Assembly: GCF_000177675.1 (NCBI RefSeq)
Contig: NZ_ADGX01000011.1
Span: 1-64,000, forward strand
Reading direction: 5' to 3'
DNA: 64,000 nt
Source: Parafrankia sp. EUN1f
GTDB taxonomy: Bacteria; Actinomycetota; Actinomycetes; Frankiales; Frankiaceae
Shown: in pieces, positions 8,774 through 57,037 of the stretch
Layout of the letters: every line of letters starts with the position of its first letter
Position numbering within the stretch: the stretch's first letter is position 1
Position numbers and translations under genes: made by a program
The notes under the pieces: generated by a model
The model's database searches: none
What the model saw: only the letters and a program-made list of their open reading frames with translations
Told to the model about the DNA's origin: nothing

Positions 8774-10150
8774 TCACATGGACTCGACCATGGCCCGTCC
8801 CGGCGCGGAGCGCTGCGCGGGAACGAAGGCTCTCGCCGAGCCGCTCGGAGCAGCCACGCCGACCGTTGCGGCCGTTGCGGCCGTTCCCGCCGCCGACCCC
8901 GCGGACGGCTGCAGCCAGTGGCGGGTGTCCAGCACGGCCCGGGCGTGGCGCAACACGATGTCGCGCCGGAACGCGTCGTGATCGACCAGCACGACAACCA
9001 GGTCCGCCGCCGCCGTCTGCTCCTCGTCGGCATCGACCAGCTCGATCCGCCCCGGAACGTGCGCGGGATCGACGTGCGGGTCGGCCGCAAAGACCTCCGC
9101 TCCGCGATCAGCCAGCAGCGCGGCCACCCGGGCCGCTGGCGACTCCCGCGAGTCCCCGGTGTTCCTCTTGTAGGCGAGCCCCAGCAGCAGAATACGACTT
9201 CCGTGCACAGAACATCCTCGTCGGCCAAGCATCTCGGCCACCCTGCTCACCACATGGTCCGGCATGTGGTGATTGATATCGTTGGCCAGTTCGACAAACC
9301 TGAAGCTGCGACCAAGCCGCGACCGGACGCGCCATGACAGGTAGGACGGGTCGATCGGAAGGCAATGACCTCCGACGCCGGGACCCGGTCGGAACGGCAT
9401 GAAGCCGAAAGGTTTGGTGGAGGCGGCGTCGATCGCCGCCCAGACGTCCGCGCCGAGCTCGTGCGCAAACATGGCGAGCTCGTTGACCAGAGCGATGTTG
9501 ACATGGCGGAAGGTGTTTTCCAGGAGCTTGGTGAGTTCCGCGGTCCTCGTCGAGGCCACCGGAACGGTGCTGTCCACCAGCGAGTCGTAGAAGGCGGTCA
9601 CGGCCCTGAGCGAGGCCTCGTCGACACCGGAAACGACCTTCGGAGTGTTCTCCAGCCGCCAGACCTTGTTCCCCGGATCAATACGTTCCGGCGAGTAGCC
9701 AAGCCGGAAGTCGGTGCCGGCAGTGAGACCGGACAACTCTTCCAGCAATGGCCCGAACAGTTCTTCGGTCGTGCCCGGGTAGGTCGTCGATTCCAGCACC
9801 ACTGTGACGCCGGGTGCCACAAAGGGTGCCAGGCTCCGCGCCGCGTCCGTCACGAAACTGAGGTCGGGCACGCCTTCCCGCAACGGGGTCGGCACGGTGA
9901 CGACCGCGACGTCGAAGGCCGCCGCCGCGGCGTAGTCGGTCGTCGCCTCGTACCTGCCGGAGGCGAGGGCCGCGGCCAGCTGACCGTCAGCGATGTCCTC
10001 GACATAGGACTCACCGACCACAAGTCTTTTGACTCGACTGATGTCGACGTCGACGCCCACCACCCGCCAGCCGGCCTCCACGGCGCGCATCGCGAGCGGG
10101 AGACCGACATACCCCTGGCCGACCACTACCAGCTTTCCCGATGAAGTCAT
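8774..10150 (-). CDS. wecC: UDP-N-acetyl-D-mannosamine dehydrogenase-like (nucleotide-sugar dehydrogenase)
   Basis: A 458-residue UDP-Glc/GDP-Man dehydrogenase family protein. It performs the two-step NAD-dependent oxidation of the C6 alcohol of a UDP-hexose to a uronic acid. Residues 11-18 (GQGYVGLP) bind NAD, Lys208 lies in AELTKLLENTFRHVNIA and the catalytic Cys263 sits in GPGVGGHCLPIDP. The gene follows a WecB-type epimerase by 27 bp, so UDP-ManNAcA is the likely product. The substrate is inferred from this pairing. The last 40 residues are an Ala-rich tail beyond the usual family length. Confidence 0.9.
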   Translation of the reverse strand: MTSSGKLVVVGQGYVGLPLAMRAVEAGWRVVGVDVDISRVKRLVVGESYVEDIADGQLAAALASGRYEATTDYAAAAAFDVAVVTVPTPLREGVPDLSFVTDAARSLAPFVAPGVTVVLESTTYPGTTEELFGPLLEELSGLTAGTDFRLGYSPERIDPGNKVWRLENTPKVVSGVDEASLRAVTAFYDSLVDSTVPVASTRTAELTKLLENTFRHVNIALVNELAMFAHELGADVWAAIDAASTKPFGFMPFRPGPGVGGHCLPIDPSYLSWRVRSRLGRSFRFVELANDINHHMPDHVVSRVAEMLGRRGCSVHGSRILLLGLAYKRNTGDSRESPAARVAALLADRGAEVFAADPHVDPAHVPGRIELVDADEEQTAAADLVVVLVDHDAFRRDIVLRHARAVLDTRHWLQPSAGSAAGTAATAATVGVAAPSGSARAFVPAQRSAPGRAMVESM

Positions 10151-10177: not shown

Positions 10178-11356
10178 TCAGCTATGCATCGGCAAGTTCG
10201 TGTCACGGTCAGTTACCGCTCGCGGGGTAGGGAGCTCCCGAACTCCGTCGCGCAGATCTTGCCCGCCGCCGCTGCCGGCGAAAGTCCGGGCGAGCACGGC
10301 GGAGATCCGTTGACCGGCACGCCCGTCCCACAGCGCGGGACATCGCGGCGGAGGCGGCCGCTCCAGCCATTCGAGCGCCGCGGCGACCACCGCATCCGGG
10401 GAACGGCCCACCACCCGGTTGGTCCCCTCGGTGACAGTGATCGGCCGCTCGGTGTTGTCCCGCAACGTCAGGCACGGAACTCCGAGAACCGTCGACTCCT
10501 CCTGCACGCCGCCCGAGTCGGTGAGCACCAGTCGCGCTCCCATCTGCAGCGCGAGGCAGTCGAGATACCCCACCGGTCCGAGTAGCCGCAGACCAGCCGG
10601 GAGTCGACCGACCAGCCGGTTGGCGGTACGTGGGTGCACGGGGAAGACCAGCGGGCATCGGCTGGCGATCTCCCCCAGTGCCGCGACCAGGTCGCCGAGC
10701 ACCGCGGGATCGTCGACGTTGCTCGGCCGGTGCAACGTCACCATGCCATACCCGCCCGAACGCAGGCCCAGCTCGGCGAGCGTGGGCCGGGCACGAGCCC
10801 GCTCCCGGCACGCCAGCAGCGTGTCGACCATGACATTGCCGACCAGATGCACCGAGTCCGGCGGCACGCCCTCCGCGAGCAGGTGCTTCACGCCCTCGGG
10901 ACTGGGCGCGAACAGCAGGTCCGACAGCCGGTCGGTGACGATCCGATTGATCTCCTCCGGCATCGCCCGGTCGCCGCTGCGCAGGCCGGCCTCGACGTGC
11001 GCCACCGCGATTCCCGCCTTGGCCGCGACCAGCGCACAGGCAAGTGTCGAGTTCACGTCCCCGACGACGACCACCACATCGGGAGCCAGTCGCATCAGCA
11101 GCGGCTCGAAGGCGGTCATCACCGCGGCCGTCTGCACGGCATGGGATCCGGAGCCGGCCTCCAGGTGGTGATCCGGCGGGCGCAGACCAAGATCGGCGAA
11201 GAAGACCCCGCTCATCGCGTCGTCGTAGTGCTGCCCCGTGTGCACGAGGGTGGTCCGGACGCCATCAGCCGTCAGCGCGTCGATCACGGGCTTCACCTTG
11301 ATGAAGTTCGGCCGGGCCCCGGCCACGACGACCGCGTGCGGCGCGACCGTGGTCAC
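10178..11356 (-). CDS. wecB: UDP-N-acetylglucosamine 2-epimerase (non-hydrolysing)
   Basis: A 392-residue GT-B-like epimerase converting UDP-GlcNAc to UDP-ManNAc. The N-terminal GARPNFIKVKP, the central HVEAGLRSGDRAMPEEINR and the C-terminal LTDSGGVQEES are the family signatures, with the acidic and His residues in place. Its start overlaps the stop of the upstream bi-domain oxidoreductase gene by 4 bp, so the two are translationally coupled. With the downstream dehydrogenase it forms a standard route to UDP-ManNAcA. Confidence 0.93.
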   Translation of the reverse strand: MTTVAPHAVVVAGARPNFIKVKPVIDALTADGVRTTLVHTGQHYDDAMSGVFFADLGLRPPDHHLEAGSGSHAVQTAAVMTAFEPLLMRLAPDVVVVVGDVNSTLACALVAAKAGIAVAHVEAGLRSGDRAMPEEINRIVTDRLSDLLFAPSPEGVKHLLAEGVPPDSVHLVGNVMVDTLLACRERARARPTLAELGLRSGGYGMVTLHRPSNVDDPAVLGDLVAALGEIASRCPLVFPVHPRTANRLVGRLPAGLRLLGPVGYLDCLALQMGARLVLTDSGGVQEESTVLGVPCLTLRDNTERPITVTEGTNRVVGRSPDAVVAAALEWLERPPPPRCPALWDGRAGQRISAVLARTFAGSGGGQDLRDGVRELPTPRAVTDRDTNLPMHS

Positions 11357-13848
11357 GGCGTGGCCGTCCCGTCGCGGTCCTGCCGTTCAGGCGCCCGACG
11401 TACCGCGGACACGCCCAGCGCGCCCAGCGCGCCCGGCCCACCCGGCGCCTCGGCCCGCTCGCCTTCCTCTCGCAGCGCGGGAGAGGCCTGGCCCTCGGGC
11501 GGCATGCTGTCCGCGCCCACCCTTCGCGCTGCCGGCACCGCTGGCCGGCCCACCTGCTCCGTGCCCGCACGGCGAGCACCCGCCAGGTCGATGCCAGTCG
11601 GCTCCACCGCCACCGCCGCCGCCGACCGCGGAAGACCTGTTGGCTGCGGAAGGCCAGTGCCGAGGCTCGCGGCGGCGGCAAGCGTTGCCCGGGACGACGC
11701 GATCAGTTCCGCCGTCACGTCCGTCGCGCCACCGCGACACATCCGCAGGAACGCGCCGACCGCGGCCCGATGCCCCTTGTCCTGCGCGCCTTTCCATTCC
11801 GAGACACCATCGATCACCAGCTCCCGGAAGTCGTCGATGCGCAGGTGGCTCCTGCCGGCGAGAGCCTCGACCAGTTCCTTCCGGCAGGCCCGGGGCCGGG
11901 CGGAGCTGTACGCGACGGTCGACAGGGTGCCGTCGACATGCCGCATGGTCACGGCCAGGTCCTCGGCCAGCAGCACCTCACCACCGCGGCCGGGCACGGC
12001 TGTCGCCGTCTCGACCCGGCTACCTGCCAGCGCCACGCAGGTGTCGATGAAATGGCAGACCTCACCGAGGAGCCGGCCGCCCTCGAGCCGGTCGCCGTAC
12101 CAGTGGTCGGCGGGTACGGGACCGGCGGCGACCCGGTAGATCAGGCTCAACGGGCCGTCCCGCTCCGCCAGCCGCCGACGGGCCGCGACGACCGCCGGGG
12201 AGAACCTGCGGTTGAGGCCCACCATCAGGACCCCGCCGCCCACGTCCGCCGCCCGCTCAACCATCTCGAGCTCGGCCAGGTCGAGGGCCAACGGCTTCTC
12301 GCACCACACATGCCGGCCTCGTTCGAGGGCCGCCGCCGCCAGCCGGGCGTGCGTCGAGTGCGGTGTCGCGATCACCACGACATCGATGTCGTCGTCATCG
12401 AGCAGTTCCTCAACCCCAGCCGCGGCCCCCTGGAAGCCATGCCGGTCGGCGAAGGCTCGAGCTGATCGCCCACTCGCCGAAGCGACACTGGTGAAACGGT
12501 CGAAACCGGCGGCTCTGAAGGCCGGCAGCAGCACCGAGCCGGAGAAGTTCCCCGCACCGATCCAGCCGATCCGATCACCGCGACGCCCAGGTGAACCGGC
12601 CCCACGTGCCACCGGTCGCGGGTACCCGACCTGCCGGGCCTTCCCCGCCAGGGAATATTCGGTCGATGTGGTGCTCTCCGCGGGCGGACCGTCGTCCGCC
12701 GCCTCGGCGTCTTCCACCGGCCCGGTGCGGCGCGGGTAGTCGAACCGGATGGCCAGGTACGGCTCCCGTCGCGTCGCCACCAGGTCATAGACCTCCGCGG
12801 CCCGCTCAAGCGGAAAGGCGTGGGTGACCAGGTCGGCCACGGACAGCCGGCCGGCGGCGAGCAGGTCGAGCACCGCTTCCTGGTTGCGGCCCTCCGTCCA
12901 GCGGACCTGGCCCGCCGGGTAGTCCACACCCCATTCCTCGTAGCCCCGCTCGTACCGACCGGGTCCGTAAGAACGCGCGAAGCGCAGGACGAGCTCCTTC
13001 TCGTAGAACGGCGCGCGTGCCAGCCCCAACGGGACGTCCCCGACGACGACAAGCTGCGCCCGGTCGCGGGCGAACTCCGTCGCCCGCATCACCGGATCAC
13101 CGGACCGGCCCGCCGCGCAGATCAGCACCGCGTCCGCCCCGCGCCTGCGGCTCCACTGCCGCACTGCGGCCGTGGTCGCCTCGCCGGACTCCCGCAGGGC
13201 CCGCACGCCGGTCGCGGCAGCGGTCTGCAGGGGCAGGTCCGCGAGGTCGACGCCGGCCACATCACATCCGCTGGCCAGCGCGATACGGGAGGCGAGCTGG
13301 CCGATGAGACCCAGTCCGACGACGACCACCTTGGCTCCCGGGCCGACCTCAGCCAGCCGGAGCCCGTGGAGCGCGATGGCGGCGATGGTCGCGAAGGCGG
13401 CGTCCGCGTCGGGGACCCCGGCCGGTACCCGCGCGCACAACAGCCCGGGCACCGCCTGGAACTCGGCATGGTTCGCCCAGCCGGCACCCCCGGTGGCCAC
13501 CAGGTCGCCGGGCCGGATGCCCTCGACGGCGTCACCGACGCGGACCGCCCGGCCGGCCCCGCTGTAACCGAGTGGCAGCTCGGAGGCGAGGCGGTCGCGG
13601 ACCGAGCGGACCGCCTCGCCGATGCCGTCCGCTCGGGCCTTCTCCGCCACCCGGCGGACAAGGTCGGGGCGTGCCCGTGCCTTGGCCAGCAGCCCCGACC
13701 GGGCGAGCGTGGTCACCGCCCGCTCGGTGCCGGCGGACACGATGGTGGCGGTGGTCTCCACGAGGACCTCGGTCGCCTCGATGGACGGGATCGGGGTCTC
13801 GACGACCCGGACCTCTCCACCGCCCGCGGCCTGGACCACCTGCCTCAT
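11353..13848 (-). CDS. Bi-domain oxidoreductase: MDR dehydrogenase fused to Gfo/Idh/MocA
   Basis: An 831-residue fusion of two oxidoreductases. Residues 1-370 form a medium-chain (zinc-type alcohol dehydrogenase-like) domain with NAD motif VVVGLGLIGQ (175-184) but no obvious structural-zinc cysteines. Residues 425-730 form a Gfo/Idh/MocA domain with GWIGAGNFSG (428-437) and the EKP motif at 517-519 whose Lys is catalytic in the family. A linker joins them and a 90-residue Pro/Ala/Arg-rich tail follows. Such fusions are known from surface-polysaccharide clusters, usually beside a heparinase II/III-like gene, as found here at 17.8 kb. Substrate unknown; a nucleotide-linked or glycan-bound amino sugar is a reasonable guess. 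It is the first gene of the wecB-wecC operon. Confidence 0.88.
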   Translation of the reverse strand: MRQVVQAAGGGEVRVVETPIPSIEATEVLVETTATIVSAGTERAVTTLARSGLLAKARARPDLVRRVAEKARADGIGEAVRSVRDRLASELPLGYSGAGRAVRVGDAVEGIRPGDLVATGGAGWANHAEFQAVPGLLCARVPAGVPDADAAFATIAAIALHGLRLAEVGPGAKVVVVGLGLIGQLASRIALASGCDVAGVDLADLPLQTAAATGVRALRESGEATTAAVRQWSRRRGADAVLICAAGRSGDPVMRATEFARDRAQLVVVGDVPLGLARAPFYEKELVLRFARSYGPGRYERGYEEWGVDYPAGQVRWTEGRNQEAVLDLLAAGRLSVADLVTHAFPLERAAEVYDLVATRREPYLAIRFDYPRRTGPVEDAEAADDGPPAESTTSTEYSLAGKARQVGYPRPVARGAGSPGRRGDRIGWIGAGNFSGSVLLPAFRAAGFDRFTSVASASGRSARAFADRHGFQGAAAGVEELLDDDDIDVVVIATPHSTHARLAAAALERGRHVWCEKPLALDLAELEMVERAADVGGGVLMVGLNRRFSPAVVAARRRLAERDGPLSLIYRVAAGPVPADHWYGDRLEGGRLLGEVCHFIDTCVALAGSRVETATAVPGRGGEVLLAEDLAVTMRHVDGTLSTVAYSSARPRACRKELVEALAGRSHLRIDDFRELVIDGVSEWKGAQDKGHRAAVGAFLRMCRGGATDVTAELIASSRATLAAAASLGTGLPQPTGLPRSAAAVAVEPTGIDLAGARRAGTEQVGRPAVPAARRVGADSMPPEGQASPALREEGERAEAPGGPGALGALGVSAVRRAPERQDRDGTATP

Positions 13849-14081: not shown

Positions 14082-15272
14082 ATGATCGCAGCGGGTGCGG
14101 CGGCGCTTCTGGTAACCGTCGCCGTCATGCCGGTCGTGGTCAGCGCGATGCGGCGCCTGGCAGCCATCGACGACGTCAACGAACGCTCCTCGCACCAGGT
14201 GCCGACCCCTCGGGGCGGCGGCATCGCCGTAGCCCTCGGCATCTTCGCGGGCGTGGTGGTGCTCCAGGTCGCCAGCGGTCACGGCGACCCCCCCAGCCTG
14301 CTCCCGATGATCGTCGGGGTGACACTGTTCGGTCTCGTCGGTCTCGCCGAGGATTTGGGTGGAGACGTGGGCGGCATCTCCCCGCTGCGCCGCCTGGCAC
14401 TGCAACTGCTCGCCAGCCTGGCGGTGTCGGCCGCGCTTCTCACCAGCGTGTCCCTCGACGCCGTACCGATCCCACCCGTGGTGGCGGTGTCCGCCGCCGC
14501 GCTGATCGGCCCGCTGTGGATCGCCGGTTTCGTCAACGCGTTCAACTTCATGGATGGGATCAACGGCATCTCGTCCGCGCAGGCCGCCGTCGCCGGCGGC
14601 AGCCTCATCGTGGTGGGACATCTGTACGAGGCGTCGGCGCTGGCTGCGGGCGGCACCGTTCTGGTCGGGTCGGCGATCGGCTTCGCGCCGTTCAACTTCC
14701 CCCGCGCGCGGATCTTTCTGGGCGACGTCGGCAGCTACATCCTCGGCACCAGCCTCGCCGTGCTCGCGTTCCAGGGCATCCTGTCCGGCATCCCGGTCGA
14801 GGCGGTGCTGGCGCCGCTACTGATCTACCTCGCCGACACCGGCGCCACGCTGGTGCGCCGGGTACTACGGGGCGAGCGCTGGTACCTGCCCCACCGCACC
14901 CACACCTACCAGCAACTCACCGACGTGGGCTGGACGCACACCCGGGTCACGGTCACGGTCGCCAGCCTCCTCGCGGCGAGCTCAGGCCTGGGACTACTGG
15001 CAGCGCGGGGTGACACGGACATCCGGGTGACGGCCGACCTCGCGCTGCTCGTACTGGTCGTGGGTTATCTGAACGCGCCTCGGCTGATCACACTCGCCCA
15101 CGCACGGGGATGCGCCGAGCAGCCGGCTCCTGCCGATCCCGCCCAGTCGGGGGATGGCTCCCGGGAGCTCGTCCTGCCGCACCAACGACAGGGCGACAAC
15201 CCACAGCCCACCACTGATCGGCCTGAACCCACCCGGACGGCCCGGGCACCCGACCCGGCCGACACCCGGTGA
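14082..15272 (+). CDS. Polyprenyl-phosphate sugar-1-phosphate transferase (WecA/WbpL-like PNPT)
   Basis: A 396-residue polytopic membrane enzyme of the MraY/WecA family. It starts polymer synthesis by moving HexNAc-1-P from a UDP-sugar to undecaprenyl phosphate. Seen motifs: DDVNERSSHQVPTPRGGG near the start, LAEDLGGD (metal region), NAFNFMDGINGIS, RARIFLGDVGSYILG and the cytoplasmic HRTHTYQQL histidines. About ten membrane helices follow each other up to residue 335; the last 60 residues are a Pro/Asp-rich cytoplasmic tail. The ATG at 14082 has AAGGAG 4 bp upstream; the frame is open further upstream without a better start. It heads the plus-strand operon and is divergent from the oxidoreductase gene. 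Confidence 0.92.
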   Translation: MIAAGAAALLVTVAVMPVVVSAMRRLAAIDDVNERSSHQVPTPRGGGIAVALGIFAGVVVLQVASGHGDPPSLLPMIVGVTLFGLVGLAEDLGGDVGGISPLRRLALQLLASLAVSAALLTSVSLDAVPIPPVVAVSAAALIGPLWIAGFVNAFNFMDGINGISSAQAAVAGGSLIVVGHLYEASALAAGGTVLVGSAIGFAPFNFPRARIFLGDVGSYILGTSLAVLAFQGILSGIPVEAVLAPLLIYLADTGATLVRRVLRGERWYLPHRTHTYQQLTDVGWTHTRVTVTVASLLAASSGLGLLAARGDTDIRVTADLALLVLVVGYLNAPRLITLAHARGCAEQPAPADPAQSGDGSRELVLPHQRQGDNPQPTTDRPEPTRTARAPDPADTR

Positions 15273-15374
15273 CGACAGCAATCCAGGTTATTCGACAACC
15301 ATGCGAATACGGTTGACTACTAATAGCAATGAGGCGCGGTCCGATCGCCGGGTTCCCCAGAAGAGGTCGATGTC

Positions 15375-16874
15375 GTGAGGCGTGGCGCTGGTCCCCCGCG
15401 GGTTCTGCTCGTTACCCACTACTTCCCCCCCGAGGTGGGCGCCCCCCAGGCACGCCTGTCGGAGACAGCGCGGGCCTGGGCCGCCGCCGGCCTCGACGTC
15501 ACCGTGCTGACCGGCATGCCGAACCATCCGACCGGTGTGGTGCCCACCAGTTACCGCGGCGCACGCAGGCGGTTGGAACACACCGACGGGTACCGGGTGG
15601 TCCGCACCTGGCTCTATGCGACCCCGAACGAAGGCGTGCTGCGCAAGACCCTCAGCCACCTGTCGTTCATGGTGACGTCGGTGCTGCTGGGCGGCCGGCC
15701 CGCTGGCCCCGTCGACGTCGTGGTCGTCTCCTCGCCCACCTTCTTCGCTCTCGGCTCGGCCTGGGTCCTGGCGCGTCTGCGGCGCGCGCGGCTGGTGGTC
15801 GAGATACGCGACCTGTGGCCTGCGATCTTCGTTCAGTTGGGTCTGATCACGAACCGCAAGGTCATCGCGGTTCTGGAAAAGCTGGAGCTGGCCGCATACC
15901 GGGCCGCAGACGCCGTTGTCACCGTTACCGAAGGCTTCCGTGAGGACATCATCCGCCGGGGCATACCCGCGGAGAAGGTGCACGTGATCCCGAACGGCGT
16001 CGACCTCGATCGATTCAGGCCAGACGAACCCGCATCCGCGGAGGTACGGGCCCGGCTGGGAGCCGGGCCCGCCGACACGCTCGTGCTCTACGTCGGCGCA
16101 CACGGCATCTCGCAGGGCCTGACCTCCGTCGCCGACGCCGCCGCGCTGCTGGCCGAGGAAACGCCCTCGATCCGTTTCGCCTTTGTGGGCGAGGGAGCCG
16201 ACAAGCGGCGGCTCACCGAGCACATCAGGCGGCTCGGCCTCACGAACACCGCCCTTGCGCCCGCGGTCCCCCGCTCAGACATGGCCGCGCTGGTCGCCTC
16301 CGCCGACATCTGCCTGGTTCCGCTGCGGGACGTACCACTGTTCGAGACTTTCATCCCATCAAAAATGTTCGAGCTGCTGGCCGCGGGCCGCCCGCTGATC
16401 GGCTCGGTGCGCGGCGAGGCAGCCCGCATCCTGACCGAGGCCGGCGCCGTGGTCGTACCGCCGGAGGACCCGGAGGCCCTCGCCGGCGCCATACTCGACC
16501 TGGCGACGGATCCGGACCGCAACGTGGCCATGGGCCTGGCCGCACGCGAGCATGTCGCGCGGCACTTCGACCGATCAGCACTGGCCGCTCGCTACCGTCA
16601 TCTACTCCTGCGGGTCCTGGCCGGGCAACCTCAGGAGGAACAGCCTCACCACGGGCAGCCCCCACCCAACCAGCGGGAGGGCGGGCAGCACCAGCAGGCA
16701 CCGGATGGCCCGAGGTCCGAGGACGAGCTGCCAGCGGCGGCCTCGGCATACCGGCCGGCCGCGCAGGGGAAGCCGCGTAACGGCGCCCAACCAGTACCCC
16801 GCCCCCGCCAACCTGGTCCTGAGAACCCTCGAACCGTCACCCACCATGCGGAAGGACGAGGGAGCGGGCGATGA
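15375..16874 (+). CDS. GT4 glycosyltransferase, WbuB/WcaI-like
   Basis: A 499-residue GT-B enzyme starting at GTG 15375. The N-terminal VLLVTHYFPPEVGAPQARLS is typical of WbuB/WcaI-like transferases acting on lipid-linked HexNAc. VIPNGVDLDRFRP opens the donor domain and FIPSKMFELLAAGRP is its donor-site motif. The core ends near residue 415. The remaining 80 residues are Gln/Pro/Arg-rich and unlike the family, possibly read-through of a lost stop. The stop overlaps the next start by 4 bp (ATGA). A decayed copy of its N-terminus exists at 30622-30771. Confidence 0.9.
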   Translation: MRRGAGPPRVLLVTHYFPPEVGAPQARLSETARAWAAAGLDVTVLTGMPNHPTGVVPTSYRGARRRLEHTDGYRVVRTWLYATPNEGVLRKTLSHLSFMVTSVLLGGRPAGPVDVVVVSSPTFFALGSAWVLARLRRARLVVEIRDLWPAIFVQLGLITNRKVIAVLEKLELAAYRAADAVVTVTEGFREDIIRRGIPAEKVHVIPNGVDLDRFRPDEPASAEVRARLGAGPADTLVLYVGAHGISQGLTSVADAAALLAEETPSIRFAFVGEGADKRRLTEHIRRLGLTNTALAPAVPRSDMAALVASADICLVPLRDVPLFETFIPSKMFELLAAGRPLIGSVRGEAARILTEAGAVVVPPEDPEALAGAILDLATDPDRNVAMGLAAREHVARHFDRSALAARYRHLLLRVLAGQPQEEQPHHGQPPPNQREGGQHQQAPDGPRSEDELPAAASAYRPAAQGKPRNGAQPVPRPRQPGPENPRTVTHHAEGRGSGR

Positions 16875-17782
16875 GGCTACTCGTCATCGGGGGCAGCGGA
16901 TTCCTCGGATCCCGGACCGTACGGCACGCCGTGGCCGCGGGCCACGAGGTCACCGGCCTCGCTCGAGGAGGGTCAGGCGCGGGCCGTCTGAGCGCCCTCG
17001 GCGCCAAGGTGGTCCGGGGTGACCTGGATGACGCCGCCGCACTGCGCGGCGCCTTCGCAGAGACGAAGGCCGACGCACTGCTCAACATCGCCTCGCTCGG
17101 CTTCGGGCACGCCGACACAATTGTCGAAACAGCATTGCAGGCTCACCTCACCCGCGCCCTCTTCGTCTCCACGACCGGAATCTTCACCGCGCTGGACCCG
17201 CCGTCGAAGCAGACGCGGCTGGCCGCTGAGAACACGATCCGCACAAGTGGGCTCGACTGGACGATCATCCGGCCAACCATGATCTACGGAGGGCCGGACG
17301 ACCGCAACATGGCGCGGCTCCTCAACCTGCTGCAGCGCTGGCCGATGTTGCCCATACCGCTGCCCGGCGGCGGTCACCAGCTCCATCAGCCCATACACGT
17401 CGACGACCTCGCCGAGCTGCTCGTTCGCGCGGTCGAGCTCGACGTCACGATCGGCCGCACCTACACCGCCGCCGGACCCGCCGCGCTGACACTGCGCCAG
17501 GTCGTCGAGCAGGCCGGCGCCGCCGCGGGCCGCCGCCCGACGTGCCTGCCCATCCCGGTCAGGCCGGTGGCGGCGCTCATCGGCGCCTACGAGCATCGAT
17601 CGGCCCGCCCGCGACTGAAAAGGGAGCAGATCGCCCGGCTGACCGAGGACAAGGCCTTCTCGATTGAGGATGCCGTGCGGGACCTCGGTTTCGCTCCTCG
17701 GCCGTTCGCCACCGGCATCCGGCAGGAGGCGACGCTCTGCCGGAACCAGAAGGCAGCAACGAGAGATCGAACGGGCAGATGA
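16871..17782 (+). CDS. Atypical SDR / NAD-dependent epimerase-like protein
   Basis: A 303-residue Rossmann protein with GGSGFLGS at residues 7-14. The central DWTIIRPTMIYGGP and HVDDLAELLVRAVE are as in NAD(P)H-binding atypical SDRs. The usual Tyr-x3-Lys pair is not evident at its normal place, so it may bind rather than turn over a sugar nucleotide, or use another residue. It overlaps both neighbours by 4 bp, so it is made with the GT4 and the heparinase-like protein. A remnant with similar N-terminus is at 30986-31120. Confidence 0.82.
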   Translation: MRLLVIGGSGFLGSRTVRHAVAAGHEVTGLARGGSGAGRLSALGAKVVRGDLDDAAALRGAFAETKADALLNIASLGFGHADTIVETALQAHLTRALFVSTTGIFTALDPPSKQTRLAAENTIRTSGLDWTIIRPTMIYGGPDDRNMARLLNLLQRWPMLPIPLPGGGHQLHQPIHVDDLAELLVRAVELDVTIGRTYTAAGPAALTLRQVVEQAGAAAGRRPTCLPIPVRPVAALIGAYEHRSARPRLKREQIARLTEDKAFSIEDAVRDLGFAPRPFATGIRQEATLCRNQKAATRDRTGR

Positions 17783-19728
17783 CGGCCTCCTTCTCCTCCG
17801 ATGTGGCGAATGATCGGCCTGCCTGGGCCGGCGGCACAGTGACACCCGCTCGGCTCGACACGCTCGACGGGCTCGACGGGCTCGGCAAAGAAGCCGATCA
17901 GGGTGAAGTCGACGGCGTCTCATCGACCTCCCCGACCACTGGGTCCGTAATGGCCCGCAGATCACACCTGGCTGGTCGATACCTGCGAACGGTAGCGCTG
18001 CTCCGGCCGGAACAGGCCGTCGCGCGTGTTCGTCTCCGCGCGCAACGTGCCATGCCCGTGTACTTCCCCACCACCTCGCGCCGGATCGTGGATGCACTCG
18101 CGCGGCCGGGCCTGCGATCTGGAGTTCACGCTCGTTGGCCGGCTTCCTTCGTTCCGTTCGACGCCCGCCTCGGCGAGGTGTGGCCGCGCGCCACTGACCT
18201 CGCCGATGGGCACTTCACCCTGCTGGGAACCACCCGCCACCTCGGCGAACCGGCCGACTGGGCCCAGCACGACGCGCCGCTGCTCTGGCGGTACCACCTG
18301 CACTACTGGGACTGGGCCTGGTCGTTCGCCCTGCATCCAGAGCGCGAGTGGGCCCGGGCGGAGTTCGACCGGCTTTACCGCTCCTGGCACCGGGCCACAA
18401 TGTTCGGACGTGGCCCAGCCTGGTCGCCCTACGTGGTGTCGCTGCGGATCTGGTCATGGTGCGGGCTGCTCGGGTCACTCGCCGACGACACACTCGCTTC
18501 CGCACTGACCACCGATCTCGCCGAACACGGAGCTTTCCTCCGCCTGCACCTGGAGACCGACGTCGGTGGAAACCACCTTCTGAAGAACATCAAGGCGCTG
18601 CTGGGGATCGCCGTCGCGTTCGACGACGCGGCCGCGAGGAAGCGTTGGACCGCACACCTGCTTCGCGAGATCGAGCGTCAGGTACTGCCCGACGGCGGCC
18701 ATGTCGAGCGCGCACCCGCCTATCACTGTCAGGTACTGGCGGACCTCGATGATCTGGCAGGCCTGCTCGACTCGGCCGGCGAGAGGGTCCCCGACGAGCT
18801 GACCGCGGCACGACTACACATGCGGAGCTGGCTCGACGACATCCTGGCACCGGATGGCACGGTGCCGATGACGAACGACGGCTACCCTGTCCCGCGTGCG
18901 GCGGTTGGCGTTCTGCTTCCGCACCGGTCCAGAACGCACAGCGTGCGGAATCCGGACCGCCCGGCTGGCACCGGTCTCACACTCTTCAGTGATTCGGGGC
19001 TGGCCGTCCTGCGCGCCGGGCCCTGGCGGGTACTCGCCGATGTCGGGCTGCCCTGTCCGGACGATCTTCCGGCGCACGCCCATGCCGACTCCCTGTCGTT
19101 TCTCCTCTGGTATGACGGCACACCGGTGCTGGTCGACAAGGGGACCTCGACCTATGCACCGGGTGCGACCCGCACCGCCGAACGCGCGACCGCGGCACAC
19201 AACACGGTTGTCGTGGACGACGCGGATTCCACCGAGGTATGGGGCGCGTTTCGGGCAGGCAGACGGGCCCGGGTCACGCTTGGCCCGGTCCGCCACGACG
19301 AGGCCGCCGACCGGTTGAGCCTGACCGCCATGCATAACGGCTACCGATGGATGACCGGCCGGCCGGATCATCTCCGGACCTGGACGATGGACGCGAACTC
19401 GCTACTCATCGTTGACCGCATCGCAGGCGGGCATCGCCACCGTGTAGACGTGCTGTTCCACCTGGATGCCGGATGGCATGCGAAGTATGACGAGGCCGGA
19501 GTGATAATCGAACGAAACACCGCGCCAGGACCCTTCCGCCTGACGACGTGTTTCGACGCGCATCGGGACGAAAGCGTCAGGAGGGGCCGCTGGCGAATCT
19601 GGACGGACACGCTCGCGGTTGGGTGGCAACGGCAGATCCCAGCCGTGGTCGTCGCCTACACAGTGACCGCGGACCTTCCACTCGAGCTGCATACCCGCTT
19701 GACCGCAGTGGGGAGCACCGATGTCTGA
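17779..19728 (+). CDS. Heparinase II/III-like (alginate-lyase-fold) protein
   Basis: A 649-residue protein with an N-terminal alpha/alpha-toroid region (about 100-350, with GNHLLKNIKALLGIA) and a C-terminal beta-sandwich. The latter begins with AHAHADSLSFLLWYDG and LVDKGTSTYAPG, the conserved His/Asp and Tyr signature of the heparinase II/III family. These proteins cleave uronic-acid glycans or act on nascent polymer in biosynthetic clusters. No signal peptide is seen, which favours a cytoplasmic role in building or proofreading the glycan. The first 55 residues are low complexity; an ATG near residue 58 (MARRSHLAGRYLR) is a possible true start, although ATG 17779 overlaps the previous gene by 4 bp. 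Confidence 0.87.
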   Translation: MTASFSSDVANDRPAWAGGTVTPARLDTLDGLDGLGKEADQGEVDGVSSTSPTTGSVMARRSHLAGRYLRTVALLRPEQAVARVRLRAQRAMPVYFPTTSRRIVDALARPGLRSGVHARWPASFVPFDARLGEVWPRATDLADGHFTLLGTTRHLGEPADWAQHDAPLLWRYHLHYWDWAWSFALHPEREWARAEFDRLYRSWHRATMFGRGPAWSPYVVSLRIWSWCGLLGSLADDTLASALTTDLAEHGAFLRLHLETDVGGNHLLKNIKALLGIAVAFDDAAARKRWTAHLLREIERQVLPDGGHVERAPAYHCQVLADLDDLAGLLDSAGERVPDELTAARLHMRSWLDDILAPDGTVPMTNDGYPVPRAAVGVLLPHRSRTHSVRNPDRPAGTGLTLFSDSGLAVLRAGPWRVLADVGLPCPDDLPAHAHADSLSFLLWYDGTPVLVDKGTSTYAPGATRTAERATAAHNTVVVDDADSTEVWGAFRAGRRARVTLGPVRHDEAADRLSLTAMHNGYRWMTGRPDHLRTWTMDANSLLIVDRIAGGHRHRVDVLFHLDAGWHAKYDEAGVIIERNTAPGPFRLTTCFDAHRDESVRRGRWRIWTDTLAVGWQRQIPAVVVAYTVTADLPLELHTRLTAVGSTDV

Positions 19729-21250
19729 CTCGCCGGTTTCCAGGTTGCCCTACCAGGTCGCGCTGACCCGCACGAACCAGGCGACCTATCCTTCGACGCC
19801 GCCCTTCTCCCCGCATACCGCCTACCCGGAATACGGTTTTGGTCACCTGAGCGGCGAACCGAACCATGTCTATGCGGCGGTTCGGCGGGTTCTCGCTCTG
19901 GCCGGCCTCGACACGGCCAGAGTCGATACCTCACAGTGGAATCCGCTTGGCGAGTATGTCGGGCCCGGAGGAACGGTGGTCCTCAAGCCGAACCTCGTAC
20001 GCGAGTTCCACCCTCGGGATCCCGATGGCTGGCAATGGGTCCTCACTCATGGCTCTGTCATTCGTGCCGCGGCCGACTACGCACTGCGAGCTGTCGGGAC
20101 AACGGGCCGGATCGTGATCGCCGATGCACCGCAGACCGACTCCTCGTTCATCGGCATCGTCACCGCTCTCGGCCTCGACCAGCTGCGCGACTTCTACCAG
20201 GAGCGGGGGTTCAGCGTCGACCTGCTCGATCTACGCCAGGAAGAATGGACAACCCGCGGCGGCGTCGTGACAGCGCGACGTCGTCTCCCCGGCGACCCGG
20301 CTGGTACCGTCGCCTTCGACCTGGGCGACCGGAGCGAGTTCGTCGGCCATCCTGGCGCCGGCCGCTACTACGGAGCCGACTACGACTCCCGTGTGGTGAA
20401 CCATCACCACACCGACGGACGCCACGAGTATCTGCTGTCCGCAACAGTGATGCAGGCTGATCTGATCATAAATCTGCCCAAGCTGAAAAGCCACAAGAAG
20501 GCCGGCATCACGCTAGGGATGAAGAACCTGGTCGGCGTGAACGCCGACAAGAACTGGCTCCCGCACCATACCGAGGGATGGCCGGGAAACCGCGGAGACG
20601 AGCACCCGAGACCAAGCGCGCGGCACCGCGCAGAGCGCGCGGTGGTCGGGGGCCTGCGGCGTGCCGCTCTCGCCTGGCCCGGAGTCGGCACACGTACATT
20701 GCGGATCGCGCGCCGCGGCGGCACTCCAATATTCGGCGACGGGGACACCACCATCCGGAGCGGAAACTGGTGGGGAAACGACACCGTCTGGAGGATGTCT
20801 CTGGATCTGAACAAGATTATCCACTATGGCAGGCCGGACGGGACGCTGACGGAAAGCCCACGGCCCACTCGGCACATCGTGCTCGTGGACGGCATCATCG
20901 CGGGACATCGCAATGGGCCGATGAGCCCCGATGCGCTCCCCGGCCGGCTGGTCGCCTTCGGGACGACACCGGCCGCCGTGGACGCTGCCGTCACCGTGCT
21001 GTTCGGCTTCGATCCTGAACGAGTGCCAACCGTTCGCCAGGGATTTCGCTGCCACCGGCTGCCGCTTGCCAACGGTGACTGGCGCGAGGTCGAGATCGTC
21101 GGAGACCACACGGCCTGGAACGGACCGATTGGACGTATTCATCCCACAGCCACCCTCCAAGCTGAGCCTCACTTCGCCTGGAAAGGCCGGGTGGAACTAT
21201 CGTGGGGCGATGTTCGGACGAATTTCAGCGACGGATCGGGCTCACCATGA
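19721..21250 (+). CDS. DUF362 domain protein
   Basis: A 509-residue protein with the DUF362 hallmarks VVLKPNLVREFHPRD near residue 87 and INLPKLKSHKKAGITLGMKN near 250. It lacks a C-terminal 2[4Fe-4S] ferredoxin part seen in some members. Function of the family is not settled. Its place between a heparinase-like gene (8-bp overlap) and an adenylate-forming enzyme (ATGA overlap) ties it to the same polysaccharide step. No membrane segment is visible. Confidence 0.85.
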   Translation: MSDSPVSRLPYQVALTRTNQATYPSTPPFSPHTAYPEYGFGHLSGEPNHVYAAVRRVLALAGLDTARVDTSQWNPLGEYVGPGGTVVLKPNLVREFHPRDPDGWQWVLTHGSVIRAAADYALRAVGTTGRIVIADAPQTDSSFIGIVTALGLDQLRDFYQERGFSVDLLDLRQEEWTTRGGVVTARRRLPGDPAGTVAFDLGDRSEFVGHPGAGRYYGADYDSRVVNHHHTDGRHEYLLSATVMQADLIINLPKLKSHKKAGITLGMKNLVGVNADKNWLPHHTEGWPGNRGDEHPRPSARHRAERAVVGGLRRAALAWPGVGTRTLRIARRGGTPIFGDGDTTIRSGNWWGNDTVWRMSLDLNKIIHYGRPDGTLTESPRPTRHIVLVDGIIAGHRNGPMSPDALPGRLVAFGTTPAAVDAAVTVLFGFDPERVPTVRQGFRCHRLPLANGDWREVEIVGDHTAWNGPIGRIHPTATLQAEPHFAWKGRVELSWGDVRTNFSDGSGSP

Positions 21251-22602
21251 AAGGCTCCGCAATAAGCCGCTCGCGGGTCGCGGCAGCCGCCTTCCGCGCT
21301 GCTTGCGACAGCCCGCTGGTCACGGCGCACCTGAAAACCCTGGCTCAGCTCGAACTAGCTGAGCCGAACGAGGTCGTTCAATGGCAGGAGAGACGCCTTC
21401 GACGTTTCGTCGACAGGTGGGCGACAGCGGTTCCCTATTACCGGGAGAATCCAGAGTATCTGCGATCGCCCGACGGGACGGCGGCGGTGCTGGACAAGGA
21501 GACCGTCCGGCGGTCGTCCGCCGCGTTCGCCAATCCGAAGGTGCCCGCGCGGCAGGTGACTACCGGAGGGACTGGGGGCCGCCCGCTGAGCCTCCGGATC
21601 TCCTATTCATCCTTCTTTTCGGAATGGGCACACATTGCCTACGTCTGGTCACGCGCCGGAGTCAGACTGAACGACCCGAAAATAACCTTCCGCGGCAGCA
21701 GTCTTGGGACCGGCTTCTACGGCCGTCCGATGATCTACCAGAGAACCTACAACCACATGGCCGTTTCACCGTTCCATCTTTCCGAAAAAACCTTCACAGA
21801 GTTGCTCAGCAGTATCCGTGATCTACGTCCTGTCGCGATCTGGGGGTACCCTTCCTCCATAACCCCGTTCGCCCTCTGGGCAGCTCGGACCGGCCCGCAT
21901 CCCGAGCTCGCCCGGCTTCGAGCGGTGCTTCTTGCCAGCGAAGGGGCCCTCGACTGGCAACTGGATCTGTTCCGCGAGGTGTTCGACGCACCGCCGATTC
22001 GCTGGTATGGCCAGAGCGAGAAAGTCGTGTTCGGTGCCGAGTGCCCGCGCGTTCCCGGCCATTACCACGTTACTCCCACCTACGGAGTGGCCCAGGTCAT
22101 CAATGACCGGATCATCGGCAGCGGGATGACGAACGCCGCCATGCCGCTCCTACGCTATGACACCGAGGACGGCGGCGTCCTCGCACCGCCAGGGCTCATG
22201 GGACGACGCTGTGCGTGCGGCTCCCCTTTTGTCGTCCTTCGCGACGTGGCAGGCCGCTGGGACCAGTCCCTGGTGTACGGAATGCACGACGAACCCATCT
22301 CGTCCGCGGCGCTCAACTTTCACGACGAGGCCTTCGCCCGATTCGACCGCTTCCAGTTCCGCCAGGAGCGGCGCGGAGAGGTCGAGTTGCGGGTCGCCTC
22401 GGCGGGTCGAGTTCCCGACGCCGCGGAGCTTGAGAAAGCGCGGTGCCTTCTCCAACATCGCGTAGGTGACCGTCTCGTCATCTCGGTCACCGTGGCGGCT
22501 GCCGACGACCTGTTGAGTCGGCGCGGAAAGATCCTCATGATCGATCAACGCTACCGCCCGAGTCAGGCTGATTTCTCAGCCATGCCGGCACAGCCGGCAT
22601 AG
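21247..22602 (+). CDS. PaaK/CapK-like adenylate-forming enzyme
   Basis: A 451-residue protein of the phenylacetate-CoA ligase/CapK group. The nucleotide loop TTGGTGG is at residues 105-111 and IRWYGQSEKVVFGAEC is the A5-like motif. A CAC cluster near 320 may be a remnant metal site. CapK-type members sit in capsule clusters and are thought to activate a carboxylate, which would fit acyl or aminoacyl decoration of the glycan; the substrate is unknown. The ATG at 21247 overlaps the stop of the DUF362 gene (ATGA). It is the last gene of the operon and is followed by a hairpin. Confidence 0.84.
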   Translation: MKGSAISRSRVAAAAFRAACDSPLVTAHLKTLAQLELAEPNEVVQWQERRLRRFVDRWATAVPYYRENPEYLRSPDGTAAVLDKETVRRSSAAFANPKVPARQVTTGGTGGRPLSLRISYSSFFSEWAHIAYVWSRAGVRLNDPKITFRGSSLGTGFYGRPMIYQRTYNHMAVSPFHLSEKTFTELLSSIRDLRPVAIWGYPSSITPFALWAARTGPHPELARLRAVLLASEGALDWQLDLFREVFDAPPIRWYGQSEKVVFGAECPRVPGHYHVTPTYGVAQVINDRIIGSGMTNAAMPLLRYDTEDGGVLAPPGLMGRRCACGSPFVVLRDVAGRWDQSLVYGMHDEPISSAALNFHDEAFARFDRFQFRQERRGEVELRVASAGRVPDAAELEKARCLLQHRVGDRLVISVTVAAADDLLSRRGKILMIDQRYRPSQADFSAMPAQPA

Positions 22603-24171: not shown

Positions 24172-25692
24172 TCAGCTAGGTTTTCTCTCCAACCCCCCGA
24201 AGGCGAACCGACTCACTACAAGTGCCGCACACAACTGGAGCGGGAGGCTTGCGATGATATCCGAGTAAGGCCTCTCGTGACTGACGAGAAGCAGCATAAC
24301 CGGGACGAAGATCACCACATATCGAGGATCCGAAAAGGGGTGCAGCGCATCGTCGATCAGCCTACAGAATCCACCGAGGATGAACATCCCGGCCGCGACG
24401 ACGAAAATTCCGCCGTAACGGTAGAGGTCGGCTATCGGGGAGATTGCGGCGGCGGTGTACAGGCTCGCGTCGGTGCCATAGTACTCCTGATTGAAGGTGT
24501 AACCATCCACCACTATCGGCTTATCGGGCCACAGTGCACGTGGTATCGCCGTGAGCATCGGCGCCAGCATGAGGTCCTTGATGTCACGGTTTGGCACGAT
24601 GGCTGGTGTCCGCTGAACTACGATCGCTATGCTGTCAATTCCACGCAGACGCCCGGAGATGTACTTTGTCGGGCCAACCGACTCGGCGTCATCCGGCTTC
24701 CGGTCACTGACTGTTTTTGACAGCAGATCAGGCGCCGAACGCAGCGCAGCGCCTGTTCCGAGGTGCGAGTCAGGGCCACGAACCAGACCCCTGTATGCCA
24801 TATTGAACGGGATCACCACAAAGACAAAGACAACTGCGGCCAAGCAGAGCATGCGCACGGGCAGCCGTCTTCGCACCGCGACATAGGCGACACAGGCGCC
24901 CGCGATGGTTATAACGAACTGCCCTTTCATGCCGCTGATCAACGCGAAAATGGTCTCGATGAGGGCGAGCGCGGCCACGCACCTGCGCCGGCGGGCGTCA
25001 CCGTGGCGGCCCAGGTCTGCCACCGCGATCATCAGGCCGGTCACGCCGAGATTCGCTGCCATCGACAGTGGATAGGTGAAGGCGCTTGATTCGCTTACGC
25101 GCTTCGACACGTCGCCCAGGTACCCGTACTGGCCGAGCGCCAGCAGCACGAGCCGGGCCGCCGTGGCAACGAACGCCAGAATCCATGGAACCGCGGGTGA
25201 GCGCAGGCGGAACTCAGGACCCGGTGCCGCAAGCCTGCCGAAGTTCCGTGCCACGGCTGTCGCCGCACGCCCCAGAGTCAGTAGATATCCCGATGTCCAG
25301 ACCGCGACGGCAATGCTGACGACCTTGAGAGCCTCAAGCACACTCACACGGTCGATCTGGGCGAGGAGGCCCAGCTGCGGCGCTGTCCATGTCGTAGTCA
25401 ACAGCCCGAGGACCAGGCCGGTCCAGGCCAGATACCAGGGCCCGAGGCGAATCTCGCCGAGACCGCTGCCTCGTCCGCAACGCGCGCCCACCAGCGTGAT
25501 CGCGCTTATACATTCCAGCGTCAGCGCGACCGACCGCAGGACGATCCTGGAGTTTTCGGAGAGACTCCAAAGCCCTTCCGCTGAAAACAGCAGCACACTT
25601 GCAGCCGCCAACGGAGCCCAGGTCAGGGGGATGGCGGCCACCACCGGTGACGAGCGATGTCCCCGCGGCAGCGTCCCGATTGGGCTCACCAC
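24172..25692 (-). CDS. Wzy-like polysaccharide polymerase (membrane)
   Basis: A 506-residue protein with about eleven hydrophobic helices and a large polar loop (about 315-400), the layout of O-antigen polymerases, which join lipid-linked repeat units outside the membrane. Sequence similarity in this family is too low for a firm call. LWPDKPIVVDGYTFNQEYYG in the loop and the position between flippase, GT and GT2 genes support it. Start: GTG 25692, or the second GTG at 25689 that overlaps the previous stop as GTGA. Confidence 0.75.
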   Translation of the reverse strand: MVSPIGTLPRGHRSSPVVAAIPLTWAPLAAASVLLFSAEGLWSLSENSRIVLRSVALTLECISAITLVGARCGRGSGLGEIRLGPWYLAWTGLVLGLLTTTWTAPQLGLLAQIDRVSVLEALKVVSIAVAVWTSGYLLTLGRAATAVARNFGRLAAPGPEFRLRSPAVPWILAFVATAARLVLLALGQYGYLGDVSKRVSESSAFTYPLSMAANLGVTGLMIAVADLGRHGDARRRRCVAALALIETIFALISGMKGQFVITIAGACVAYVAVRRRLPVRMLCLAAVVFVFVVIPFNMAYRGLVRGPDSHLGTGAALRSAPDLLSKTVSDRKPDDAESVGPTKYISGRLRGIDSIAIVVQRTPAIVPNRDIKDLMLAPMLTAIPRALWPDKPIVVDGYTFNQEYYGTDASLYTAAAISPIADLYRYGGIFVVAAGMFILGGFCRLIDDALHPFSDPRYVVIFVPVMLLLVSHERPYSDIIASLPLQLCAALVVSRFAFGGLERKPS

Positions 25693-26729
25693 AAGATCTC
25701 CAGTAGCCGCGTGAGACGGTCCTGATAGGTGTGATCCCGGTGGCTTCGAGCGGCCGCGGCATCACCGACGGAGCGTGCCGCCGGGCGATCATCCGTGCAC
25801 CACTTGATGCGCCCGAGCAGCTCTTCGAAGGTCGTGAACCCAAGGACCTCGCGCTCCTCGTCGTACAGGCTTTCCAGCGGAGGTCGACGCTCGCACAGGA
25901 CAACGGCACCACACGCCGCGGCCTCGAAAAGGCGGCAGTTCACACTGGTCATCTCCGCTGGATGCAAGGCGTTCACGACCGCCAGCGCCTCGCGGAAGAC
26001 TCTTGCCTTCTCAGCCCCTGTCACGTATCGGCCCGTGTGCCGCTGGACCAATCGCTCGTCCCAGAGCCACTTCGGGATCGGCGGGCCGTAGATCTGGACT
26101 TCGACGCCGTGACCGACCAGTTCTGTGATCAGCCGGGCGCGACCTGGATACATATTGCCGACGAACACGACATGCTGCTGCCCGTTCGCCGTATCCGGCG
26201 GCCGGTGCCGGGCGGGGTTACATGCCTCCGGCAGATAGTGTGCTGGAAGGCGGAGGACGTCGGCGAGTCTGGTCGTCAGCAGGGGGTCCTTGAAGAAAAG
26301 GGCGTTGTAGTCGCCCAGCAGAAACTGCAGACGACCCATGTTGGCGACACAGTCAGGAAACCACAGGCACACGCGGATCCCGCGGCGCCTGAGGTTCCGG
26401 ACCGTCTGCGGGAGAAGCGGGTAAACCGCTATAACCGTACTGACGCGCTCGCGTTCTGCACGGGCGACGATCTGCCGTTGATAGGTGAGGTCAACCCGGT
26501 CGAAGGCGCTTCGCAGCGCAAGAACCGGCCCACTCAGCCAGCCGTTCGGCATCGGAATCGGGGGTCCGAGAGCCACTGGCTGAACGCCGATATCGGGAAG
26601 ACAGTCTATGATGTTGTCAGCGAAGCTGTCAGACCCCAGTGGGCCGACCACTCCTACACGTTCCGCGCTGCCGGAGACTCGATCGTCGGTCGCCACGGGA
26701 GCTTCCTCTACGTTCCTCGCTCCAGTCAT
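25686..26729 (-). CDS. CgeB-like glycosyltransferase (GT-B)
   Basis: A 347-residue GT-B protein of the CgeB/Glyco_trans_1_2 type. The N-terminal half has VCLWFPDCVANM and NALFFKDPLLTTRL. The donor half has VVFVGNMYPGRARLI, KARVFREALAVVNA and CRLFEAAACGAVVLCE, which carries the conserved Glu. It overlaps the flippase gene upstream by 4 bp and the polymerase gene downstream by 7 bp, so all three are co-translated. Donor and acceptor unknown. Confidence 0.83.
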   Translation of the reverse strand: MTGARNVEEAPVATDDRVSGSAERVGVVGPLGSDSFADNIIDCLPDIGVQPVALGPPIPMPNGWLSGPVLALRSAFDRVDLTYQRQIVARAERERVSTVIAVYPLLPQTVRNLRRRGIRVCLWFPDCVANMGRLQFLLGDYNALFFKDPLLTTRLADVLRLPAHYLPEACNPARHRPPDTANGQQHVVFVGNMYPGRARLITELVGHGVEVQIYGPPIPKWLWDERLVQRHTGRYVTGAEKARVFREALAVVNALHPAEMTSVNCRLFEAAACGAVVLCERRPPLESLYDEEREVLGFTTFEELLGRIKWCTDDRPAARSVGDAAAARSHRDHTYQDRLTRLLEILW

Positions 26730-28102: not shown

Positions 28103-29040
28103 GTTGTCTGGTTTCTAGGGAAACGGATCCGCTTCAGTTCCGCCACGACGCGATCAAAACGTTCCCATTTCGGCGTGAGGGCGAGAACATTCGACGAGAA
28201 GCCACCCTGGCCGGAGAGCCCATGCCGACTGAGGTTCAGAATTCGGTAGCCGAGGCCGGCGAGGTTGTCAACGATGTCGGCCGCTGTCATCCCACGTCGC
28301 TCGAGATGGGCCGGCAGGAGCTCCAGCAGCAACGCCGGGTGCTCTGTCGAGAGGATGTCCGACGCGCCCCGCAGGACGTCCAGCTCGAATCCCTCGACGT
28401 CGATCTTCACCAACACGGGCGGCCGGCGGGTGGCAGCGTAGGTGTTCAGGGTGGTCAGCGGCACGCTGACATCCGGCTGACTGCCGTCAGTCACCGGATG
28501 GGCGAGGCCGGAGGCGTTCCGGTGTATTTTCATGCCGATCTCTCCCTCGCTGGCACCGACGGCGGAGGACGAGATACGCACGTTCTGCAGCTGGTTCTGC
28601 TCGACGAGTGCCGTGAGTGTCGCTCGTGTCCCGTCTACCGGTTCGAAGGCGTGAACCTCCCCGAAATCACCCACGAGCCCCGCCGCCCACAGGGTGTAGA
28701 CGCCGATGTTCGCACCGACGTCGTAACAGCAGTCGCCGGGCTCGAGGATGGCCGAAAATACCGGCGCGAGCGCCGGCGGCCGATAGCAGAGCGATACAAG
28801 CGAACTGATCGATCCGTCTCGGCATTGGTCCACCGAGAAGGTCATGCCATTTGACAGCCGACCAGACAGTGGCCCTGTATATTGCGCGCTCGGGCCCCGC
28901 ACCAGAGACGTCAGCCGGTCTCGGCCCCTCATTTCTGGTAGCCACGCGGCGAGCTGGGTGGCCACCCGCCAGCGCATCGGACAACTCACACGAAGGTCTA
29001 CATTAGATGAGATCTTCAAGCTCTCGTCAGACACGCACAC
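28099..29040 (-). CDS. FkbM-family methyltransferase
   Basis: A 313-residue SAM-dependent methyltransferase. YDVGANIGVYTLWA binds SAM, VHAFEPV is motif II, and VKIDVEGFELDVLRGA is the FkbM signature. Family members O-methylate sugars or polyketides, so the target here is most likely a hydroxyl of the glycan. It is first of the tightly overlapping minus-strand set. Start GTG 29040 is uncertain; the ATG at about 28977 (MRWRVATQL) is possible. Confidence 0.88.
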   Translation of the reverse strand: MCVSDESLKISSNVDLRVSCPMRWRVATQLAAWLPEMRGRDRLTSLVRGPSAQYTGPLSGRLSNGMTFSVDQCRDGSISSLVSLCYRPPALAPVFSAILEPGDCCYDVGANIGVYTLWAAGLVGDFGEVHAFEPVDGTRATLTALVEQNQLQNVRISSSAVGASEGEIGMKIHRNASGLAHPVTDGSQPDVSVPLTTLNTYAATRRPPVLVKIDVEGFELDVLRGASDILSTEHPALLLELLPAHLERRGMTAADIVDNLAGLGYRILNLSRHGLSGQGGFSSNVLALTPKWERFDRVVAELKRIRFPRNQTT

Positions 29041-57016: not shown

Positions 57017-57037
57017 GCTGCAACCCTAAGCCATGAA

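Follow-up and report, generated by a model that had tools for sequence, protein, structure and literature searches.

A DUF362 protein that appears to have the LarA fold and its recurrent PaaK-like partner in a glycan locus of Parafrankia sp. EUN1f

DUF362 and the LarA domain belong to one Pfam clan, and a study of LarA took DUF362 as its outgroup (PMC11770544). In LarA, a nickel-pincer racemase, the cofactor is tethered to K184 and nickel is bound by H200, and H108 and H174 serve as acid/base; 2-hydroxy acid epimerases are among the members of its superfamily (PMC11770544). We analysed a stretch of 64,000 nucleotides from Parafrankia sp. EUN1f (contig NZ_ADGX01000011.1), hereafter the window, in which a DUF362 gene is followed by a gene for a PaaK/CapK-like adenylate-forming ligase, here PaaK for short. 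In the literature searched, which included few subscription journals, no paper combining the genes of this locus was found, in agreement with a preliminary description of the same DNA, which knew of no described pathway with this set.

The whole window reads as one large glycan locus with many glycosyltransferases. Six plus-strand genes, ending with the DUF362 and PaaK genes, have a spacer of 102 bp after the PNPT gene and then overlap by 4, 4, 8 and 4 bp (Table 1). This layout of six genes with overlaps of 4-8 bp after the first spacer, as given in the preliminary description, was borne out by the ORFs and Pfam matches, and all genes of the set were confirmed, including the SDR gene that its title had omitted. 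The wecB-wecC-bi-domain operon, which had been described as facing these genes, is actually divergent, and lies back to back with them across a gap of 233 bp, running on the minus strand from position 13848. The longest ORF for PaaK starts at 21202; an alternative start at 21247 is the likelier one, because its ATGA overlap fits the overlaps noted earlier. The closest specific models for the WecC-like protein are UDP-ManNAc dehydrogenases, whose cut-offs it did not reach, and it passed the general nucleotide-sugar dehydrogenase model. A scan for promoters and terminators gave no signal above shuffled sequences.

Table 1. Features of the window, with the sequence evidence for each
Feature	Position	Strand	Basis
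Second GT4, distal gene of divergent operon	7033-8517	-	Pfam GT4 domains
WecC-like nucleotide-sugar dehydrogenase	8774-10150	-	TIGR03026, 411 bits (cut-off 190)
WecB, UDP-GlcNAc 2-epimerase	10178-11356	-	TIGR00236, 300 bits (cut-off 210), curated equivalog
Bi-domain oxidoreductase (Zn-ADH-like + Gfo/Idh/MocA)	11353-13848	-	PF01408, E 3.7e-23; ADH_zinc_N
PNPT (WecA/MraY-type initiating sugar-phosphate transferase)	14082-15272	+	PF00953 Glycos_transf_4, E 1.6e-30
GT4 glycosyltransferase (WcaI/WbuB-like)	15375-16874	+	Pfam GT4 domains; NF007640, 201 bits, below its cut-off
SDR, NAD-dependent sugar epimerase/reductase-like	16871-17782	+	PF01370, E 3.3e-20
Heparinase II/III-like (PL12-type)	17779-19728	+	PF07940, E 2e-47, 162 bits
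DUF362 protein	19721-21250	+	PF04015, 81.7 bits (cut-off 24)
PaaK/CapK-like adenylate-forming ligase	21247-22602	+	NCBIfam PaaK-like models, below cut-off; predicted fold
Wzy-like polymerase	24172-25692	-	Weak NCBIfam match only, below cut-off
Flippase-like (Wzx-type)	26726-28102	-	PF01943
Run holding the two preceding genes	24172-29040	-	
Second initiating transferase and DegT aminotransferase	38137-40253	-	Bac_transf
PglD-like hexapeptide acyltransferase	51528-52328	-	
GGDEF-EAL protein, sortase and ABC ATPase genes	53182-57937	-	

The PNPT, flippase-like and Wzy-like genes are the parts of a Wzx/Wzy-type locus seen in the window. The last two belong to a tight run that also encodes a glycosyltransferase and an FkbM methyltransferase, and this run was found again in Parafrankia colletiae (L047) and partly in Pseudofrankia (L044). 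Given the second initiating transferase, which adjoins the DegT aminotransferase, two glycans may be assembled by the locus. Towards the far end of this locus lie the GGDEF-EAL, sortase and ABC ATPase genes.

The DUF362 protein is the only PF04015 match in its own genome, and its heparinase neighbour is also the single copy of its family there. An AlphaFold2 model made with 75 own and related DUF362 sequences reached a pLDDT of 93.9 and a pTM of 0.93, and its clear structural relatives were LarA-type nickel-pincer nucleotide enzymes and an uncharacterised Thermotoga protein (4nar) only. Against the LarA family, Foldseek gave an E value of 5.2e-5, and VIA gave Z scores of 15.4-16.4 with 223-243 residues aligned at an rmsd of 3.1-3.6, the next unrelated structure having a Z of 5.7. 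On the evidence of this model, the DUF362 protein appears to have the LarA (nickel-pincer racemase) fold. We do not file it as LarA, because a Pfam search at E 0.001 gave PF04015 only, with no match to Lar_N (PF09861), and a full-length HMM-HMM alignment (hhalign) of DUF362 with a shallow LarA alignment was not significant. A PDB sequence search with the DUF362 protein returned only a spurious designed TIM barrel.

The residues of the pincer site were compared by sliding a profile of DUF362 columns 246-270 along four LarA proteins. The best window in all four placed H258 on H174 and K268 on K184 in an ungapped sequence register, with L. plantarum LarA outscoring every one of 1215 control ORFs except 1, and the other three only within about the top 5%. 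Both K268 and H282 are invariant in the 75 sequences, as is H258, in its case partly by construction, since it lies inside the peptide pattern used for the scan. H282 is the candidate for LarA H200, and follows the lysine by 14 residues as against 16 in LarA, so that a shift of 2 residues is needed. Counterparts of the phosphate-binding R75 and of the second catalytic histidine, H108, sought by profile windows over the four LarA proteins, had no consistent place: one window in L. plantarum LarA comes near the H108 region, and the other three proteins do not reproduce it. Generic DUF362 proteins (L005-L024) have the motif K-x-K-T-H-x9-K-N in common, and with ordinary members carrying it too, any pincer-type reading may apply to PF04015 as a whole.

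Cofactor supply was assessed by the occurrence of LarC and LarE. Both are present in the genome of Parafrankia sp. EUN1f and in seven Frankiaceae relatives with DUF362 (8/8); in the genus g241 there is no DUF362 match and no LarE over the cut-off, and LarC is nearly always missing. Among 50 other hosts, LarC was found in 40, LarE in 43 and at least one of them in 46, leaving 4 with neither, all MAGs, including the host of locus L058. The presence of LarC was rejected as proof of pincer use, since its background in Planctomycetota (92/119, 77%) is as high as its occurrence in the hosts (40/50), and the LarC/LarE counts are only weakly indicative, being compatible with pincer use. Across 396 Actinomycetota, with kinship ignored, LarC occurred in 159 of the 174 genomes that have a DUF362 member of any type and in 89 of the 222 that have none. 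Among the control genomes, LarC and LarE without a Lar_N match were seen in Synechococcus elongatus, Haloferax volcanii and M. jannaschii, of which the first two have DUF362.

In a single actinobacterial family (f20), three genomes that are complete or nearly so (G012, G301 and G310) encode DUF362 members and no LarC. This would fit a reading, which we consider rather improbable, that the DUF362 protein keeps the LarA fold without a pincer cofactor, as another redox or binding protein, and that PaaK activates the carboxyl group of a uronic acid for amide formation with an amino acid or amine side chain. CapK-type capsule proteins are suspected of a similar activation. The lack of consistent H108 and R75 counterparts from the profile windows also speaks for this reading, as do asparagine-synthase-like amidotransferases, which occur in 16 DUF362 loci; however, the f20 proteins are generic DUF362 members and not of the module type, and the H174/K184 register, together with the invariant K268 and H282, would be hard to explain without a pincer-like ligand.

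In all, 85,000 GTDB species genomes were scanned with the DUF362 alignment alone, PaaK being absent from the query, and the best 80 of the 415 relatives found were retained for locus comparison. These best 80 of 415 come from about 20 phyla, as organisms counted on the tree, among them Planctomycetota, Acidobacteriota, Chloroflexota, Zixiibacteriota, Verrucomicrobiota, Nitrospirota, Myxococcota, Gemmatimonadota, Armatimonadota, Bacillota and Chlamydiota, and include one haloarchaeon. A PaaK-like gene was present in 67 of the 77 loci with room for one, and in 54 of the 77 it directly adjoined DUF362 on the same strand, at a distance of at most 400 bp; L074, L089, L065 and L111 are loci without it. 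The bi-domain oxidoreductase was found in 37 of 82 DUF362 loci and heparinase in 22 (22/55 of those with 6 kb of downstream sequence). The fullest locus, L058, from an Anaerolineales MAG (Chloroflexota), carries DUF362, PaaK, bi-domain, WecB, heparinase, GT4, SDR and PNPT genes contiguously, that is, all members of the set except wecC, with a strong SDR match of 484 bits. PNPT recurs in L062, L081 and L094 as well, and a GT4 of the same family adjoins heparinase in most heparinase loci. The nearest named relatives carrying the locus are Frankia, Pseudofrankia and Parafrankia, and no match to DUF362 was found in plasmids.

Recurrence of the gene set, on which the preliminary description had made its proposal depend, was thus seen in about 20 phyla among the best 80 of 415 relatives, and the co-occurrence it had suggested looking for is seen in the 15 DUF362 loci that have both the bi-domain oxidoreductase and heparinase. 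A chance neighbourhood would be conceivable in a window that is a large exopolysaccharide locus with many glycosyltransferases, but with the same partners recurring at this breadth it is barely credible, and we rejected it because PaaK adjoins DUF362 in independent loci that were found by DUF362 alone. Parts of the locus seem to be gained and lost often, because the label 'bi-domain plus heparinase' switches at least 8 to 11 times on the DUF362 tree, a count inflated by loci cut at contig ends. Since most loci come from metagenome bins, absences in related loci are weak evidence.

The contexts inspected around DUF362-PaaK were nearly all polysaccharide loci, and the conserved neighbours were sugar transferases, methyltransferases, a sulfotransferase, asparagine synthase, an exosortase, WecG, DUF354 and similar proteins. 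A dedicated acyltransferase was sought among these conserved neighbours, and none recurs. In the window, the PglD-like hexapeptide acyltransferase is encoded some 29 kb away from PaaK and is a possible distant partner of PaaK in acyl transfer.

The AlphaFold2 model of PaaK (pLDDT 85) matched the PaaK family with VIA Z scores of 22-26, and tied among ligases for phenylacetate, salicylate-type acids and 2-hydroxyisobutyrate (2-hydroxyisobutyryl-CoA ligase). The ANL residues G123, E247, Y269-G270, E273, R318, D323 and K443 are invariant in 40 homologues. Because of the match to the PaaK family and the invariance of the adenylation residues, PaaK should activate a carboxylate. It was not assigned to the phenylacetate-CoA ligase equivalog, scoring 28.7 bits against the haloarchaeal PaaK model (cut-off 700), and its homologues all fell below every curated cut-off.

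Locus L074 has DUF362 without PaaK, beside WecC, SDR and flippase-like genes. Such a locus, together with the 2-hydroxy acid epimerases of the LarA superfamily (PMC11770544), could be taken to mean that DUF362 acts on a sugar carbinol of a nucleotide sugar or lipid-linked glycan, as a nickel-type analogue of GalE, and that PaaK acts on an unrelated acid, the two being linked through the final product only. We think this unlikely, as the strong adjacency of DUF362 and PaaK across phyla suggests a shared substrate.

The preliminary description had the last three genes of the run acting together, which is supported for DUF362 and PaaK, same-strand neighbours in most loci, and is not supported for heparinase, which is separable from the pair. 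In Parafrankia colletiae and in Frankia (L043, L045 and L046), DUF362 and PaaK are kept and heparinase is not found within the fetched stretch. Conversely, plasmid loci of E. coli, Parabacteroides, Sulfitobacter, Halobellus and Haloarcula have a heparinase-like gene adjoining GT4 with no DUF362 or PaaK annotated, often with wecB/wecC and once with the bi-domain enzyme. Since each set is also found without the other, DUF362+PaaK and wecB/C+heparinase+GT4 are two separable modules. The E. coli cluster (L123, IncC plasmid pCRE10.2, 6150-15745) has the order wecB-wecC-polymerase-heparinase-GT4 and lies between IS26 copies; several Enterobacter and E. coli plasmids carry this same heparinase. At the usual place of heparinase, L121 (12828-14207) and L077 (18052-19233) encode a weakly GH88/GH127-like protein (cluster c18), which is perhaps a substitute for it.

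The heparinase-like protein gave profile matches to heparinase III (5jmd, E 6e-52; 4mmi, E 3e-49). N265, H266, Y315, H433 and H474 are invariant in 16 homologues, and N265, Y315 and H433 line up with heparinase III positions that we take to be its catalytic Asn, Tyr and His. No signal peptide was evident on inspection of the N-terminus, as had been described before. Dermatan sulfate epimerase is related to lyases in fold and chemistry, and by analogy an intracellular lyase-fold protein beside a GT4 for uronic acid could be an epimerase. The retained catalytic residues and the N-terminus would also suit intracellular trimming of mis-assembled uronic-acid glycan, in which heparinase cleaves and DUF362 and PaaK salvage the acid fragment. 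This is very unlikely, since heparinase is missing from most DUF362-PaaK loci and occurs in plasmid loci without DUF362 or PaaK.

We tentatively favour, at somewhat less than even confidence, an explanation of the locus as a glycan core joined by a DUF362-PaaK cassette that would fix the configuration of a hydroxy or sugar acid and activate it so that it can be attached. The stretch would be the core that assembles and tailors a surface glycan of the Wzx/Wzy type. Judging from their families, WecB and WecC would make a UDP-ManNAcA-type uronic acid, PNPT would prime the lipid carrier and GT4 would add the amino-uronic acid. The heparinase-fold protein would have the uronic acid as its intracellular substrate, and for it we prefer a lyase-like half reaction, C5 epimerisation for example, to chain cleavage. 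In the separate two-gene cassette, DUF362 would bind a nickel-pincer-type cofactor and use hydride transfer to invert a carbinol centre in its substrate, a 2-hydroxy acid or sugar acid; PaaK would then activate that carboxylate as an acyl-AMP or acyl-CoA, and the activated acyl group would decorate the (uronic-acid) repeat unit. This acid-activating and attaching role is our best guess for the pair, and the lack of a dedicated acyltransferase recurring in the module is a point against it.

Among glycan-tailoring enzymes, the DUF362 protein may represent a new kind. A broader proposal, which we hold to be doubtful, is that DUF362 forms a second large nickel-pincer-type hydride-transfer class beside LarA, whose module member makes an inverted acid that is activated by PaaK and built into bacterial and haloarchaeal surface glycans. 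With the predicted LarA fold and pincer-type lysine, an uncharacterised family gains a testable chemistry and, across glycan loci from about 20 phyla, a fixed partner. Confirmation of the cofactor would carry nickel-pincer chemistry beyond free hydroxy acids into the tailoring of cell-surface polymers, and would provide a candidate user for some cofactor-making genomes without a recognised LarA, such as the control genomes of Haloferax volcanii and Synechococcus elongatus.

Four kinds of known system come close to parts of this locus. With PL12 heparinase III lyases, the window protein shares the profile over most of its length and the N, Y and H catalytic positions, but it has no evident signal peptide and lies in a biosynthetic operon beside GT4. 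The plasmid clusters of the type wecB-wecC-(bi-domain oxidoreductase)-'alginate lyase family'-GT4 (E. coli pCRE10.2, Parabacteroides, Sulfitobacter and Haloarcula) are alike in their ManNAcA-type genes and in the heparinase-like protein beside GT4, and differ in that neither DUF362 nor PaaK is annotated in the stretch. The PaaK-type acyl-CoA/AMP ligases (PaaK1, BT_0428, NatL2 and 2-hydroxyisobutyryl-CoA ligase) share their fold, adenylation motifs and a conserved Cys motif with the window ligase, which differs in falling below every curated cut-off and in being coupled to DUF362. Finally, the DUF362 protein resembles LarA-type nickel-pincer enzymes in its predicted fold (VIA Z about 16), in the His and Lys of the pincer site and in the presence of LarC/LarE in most hosts, whereas it matches Pfam DUF362 rather than Lar_N and is located in a glycan locus.
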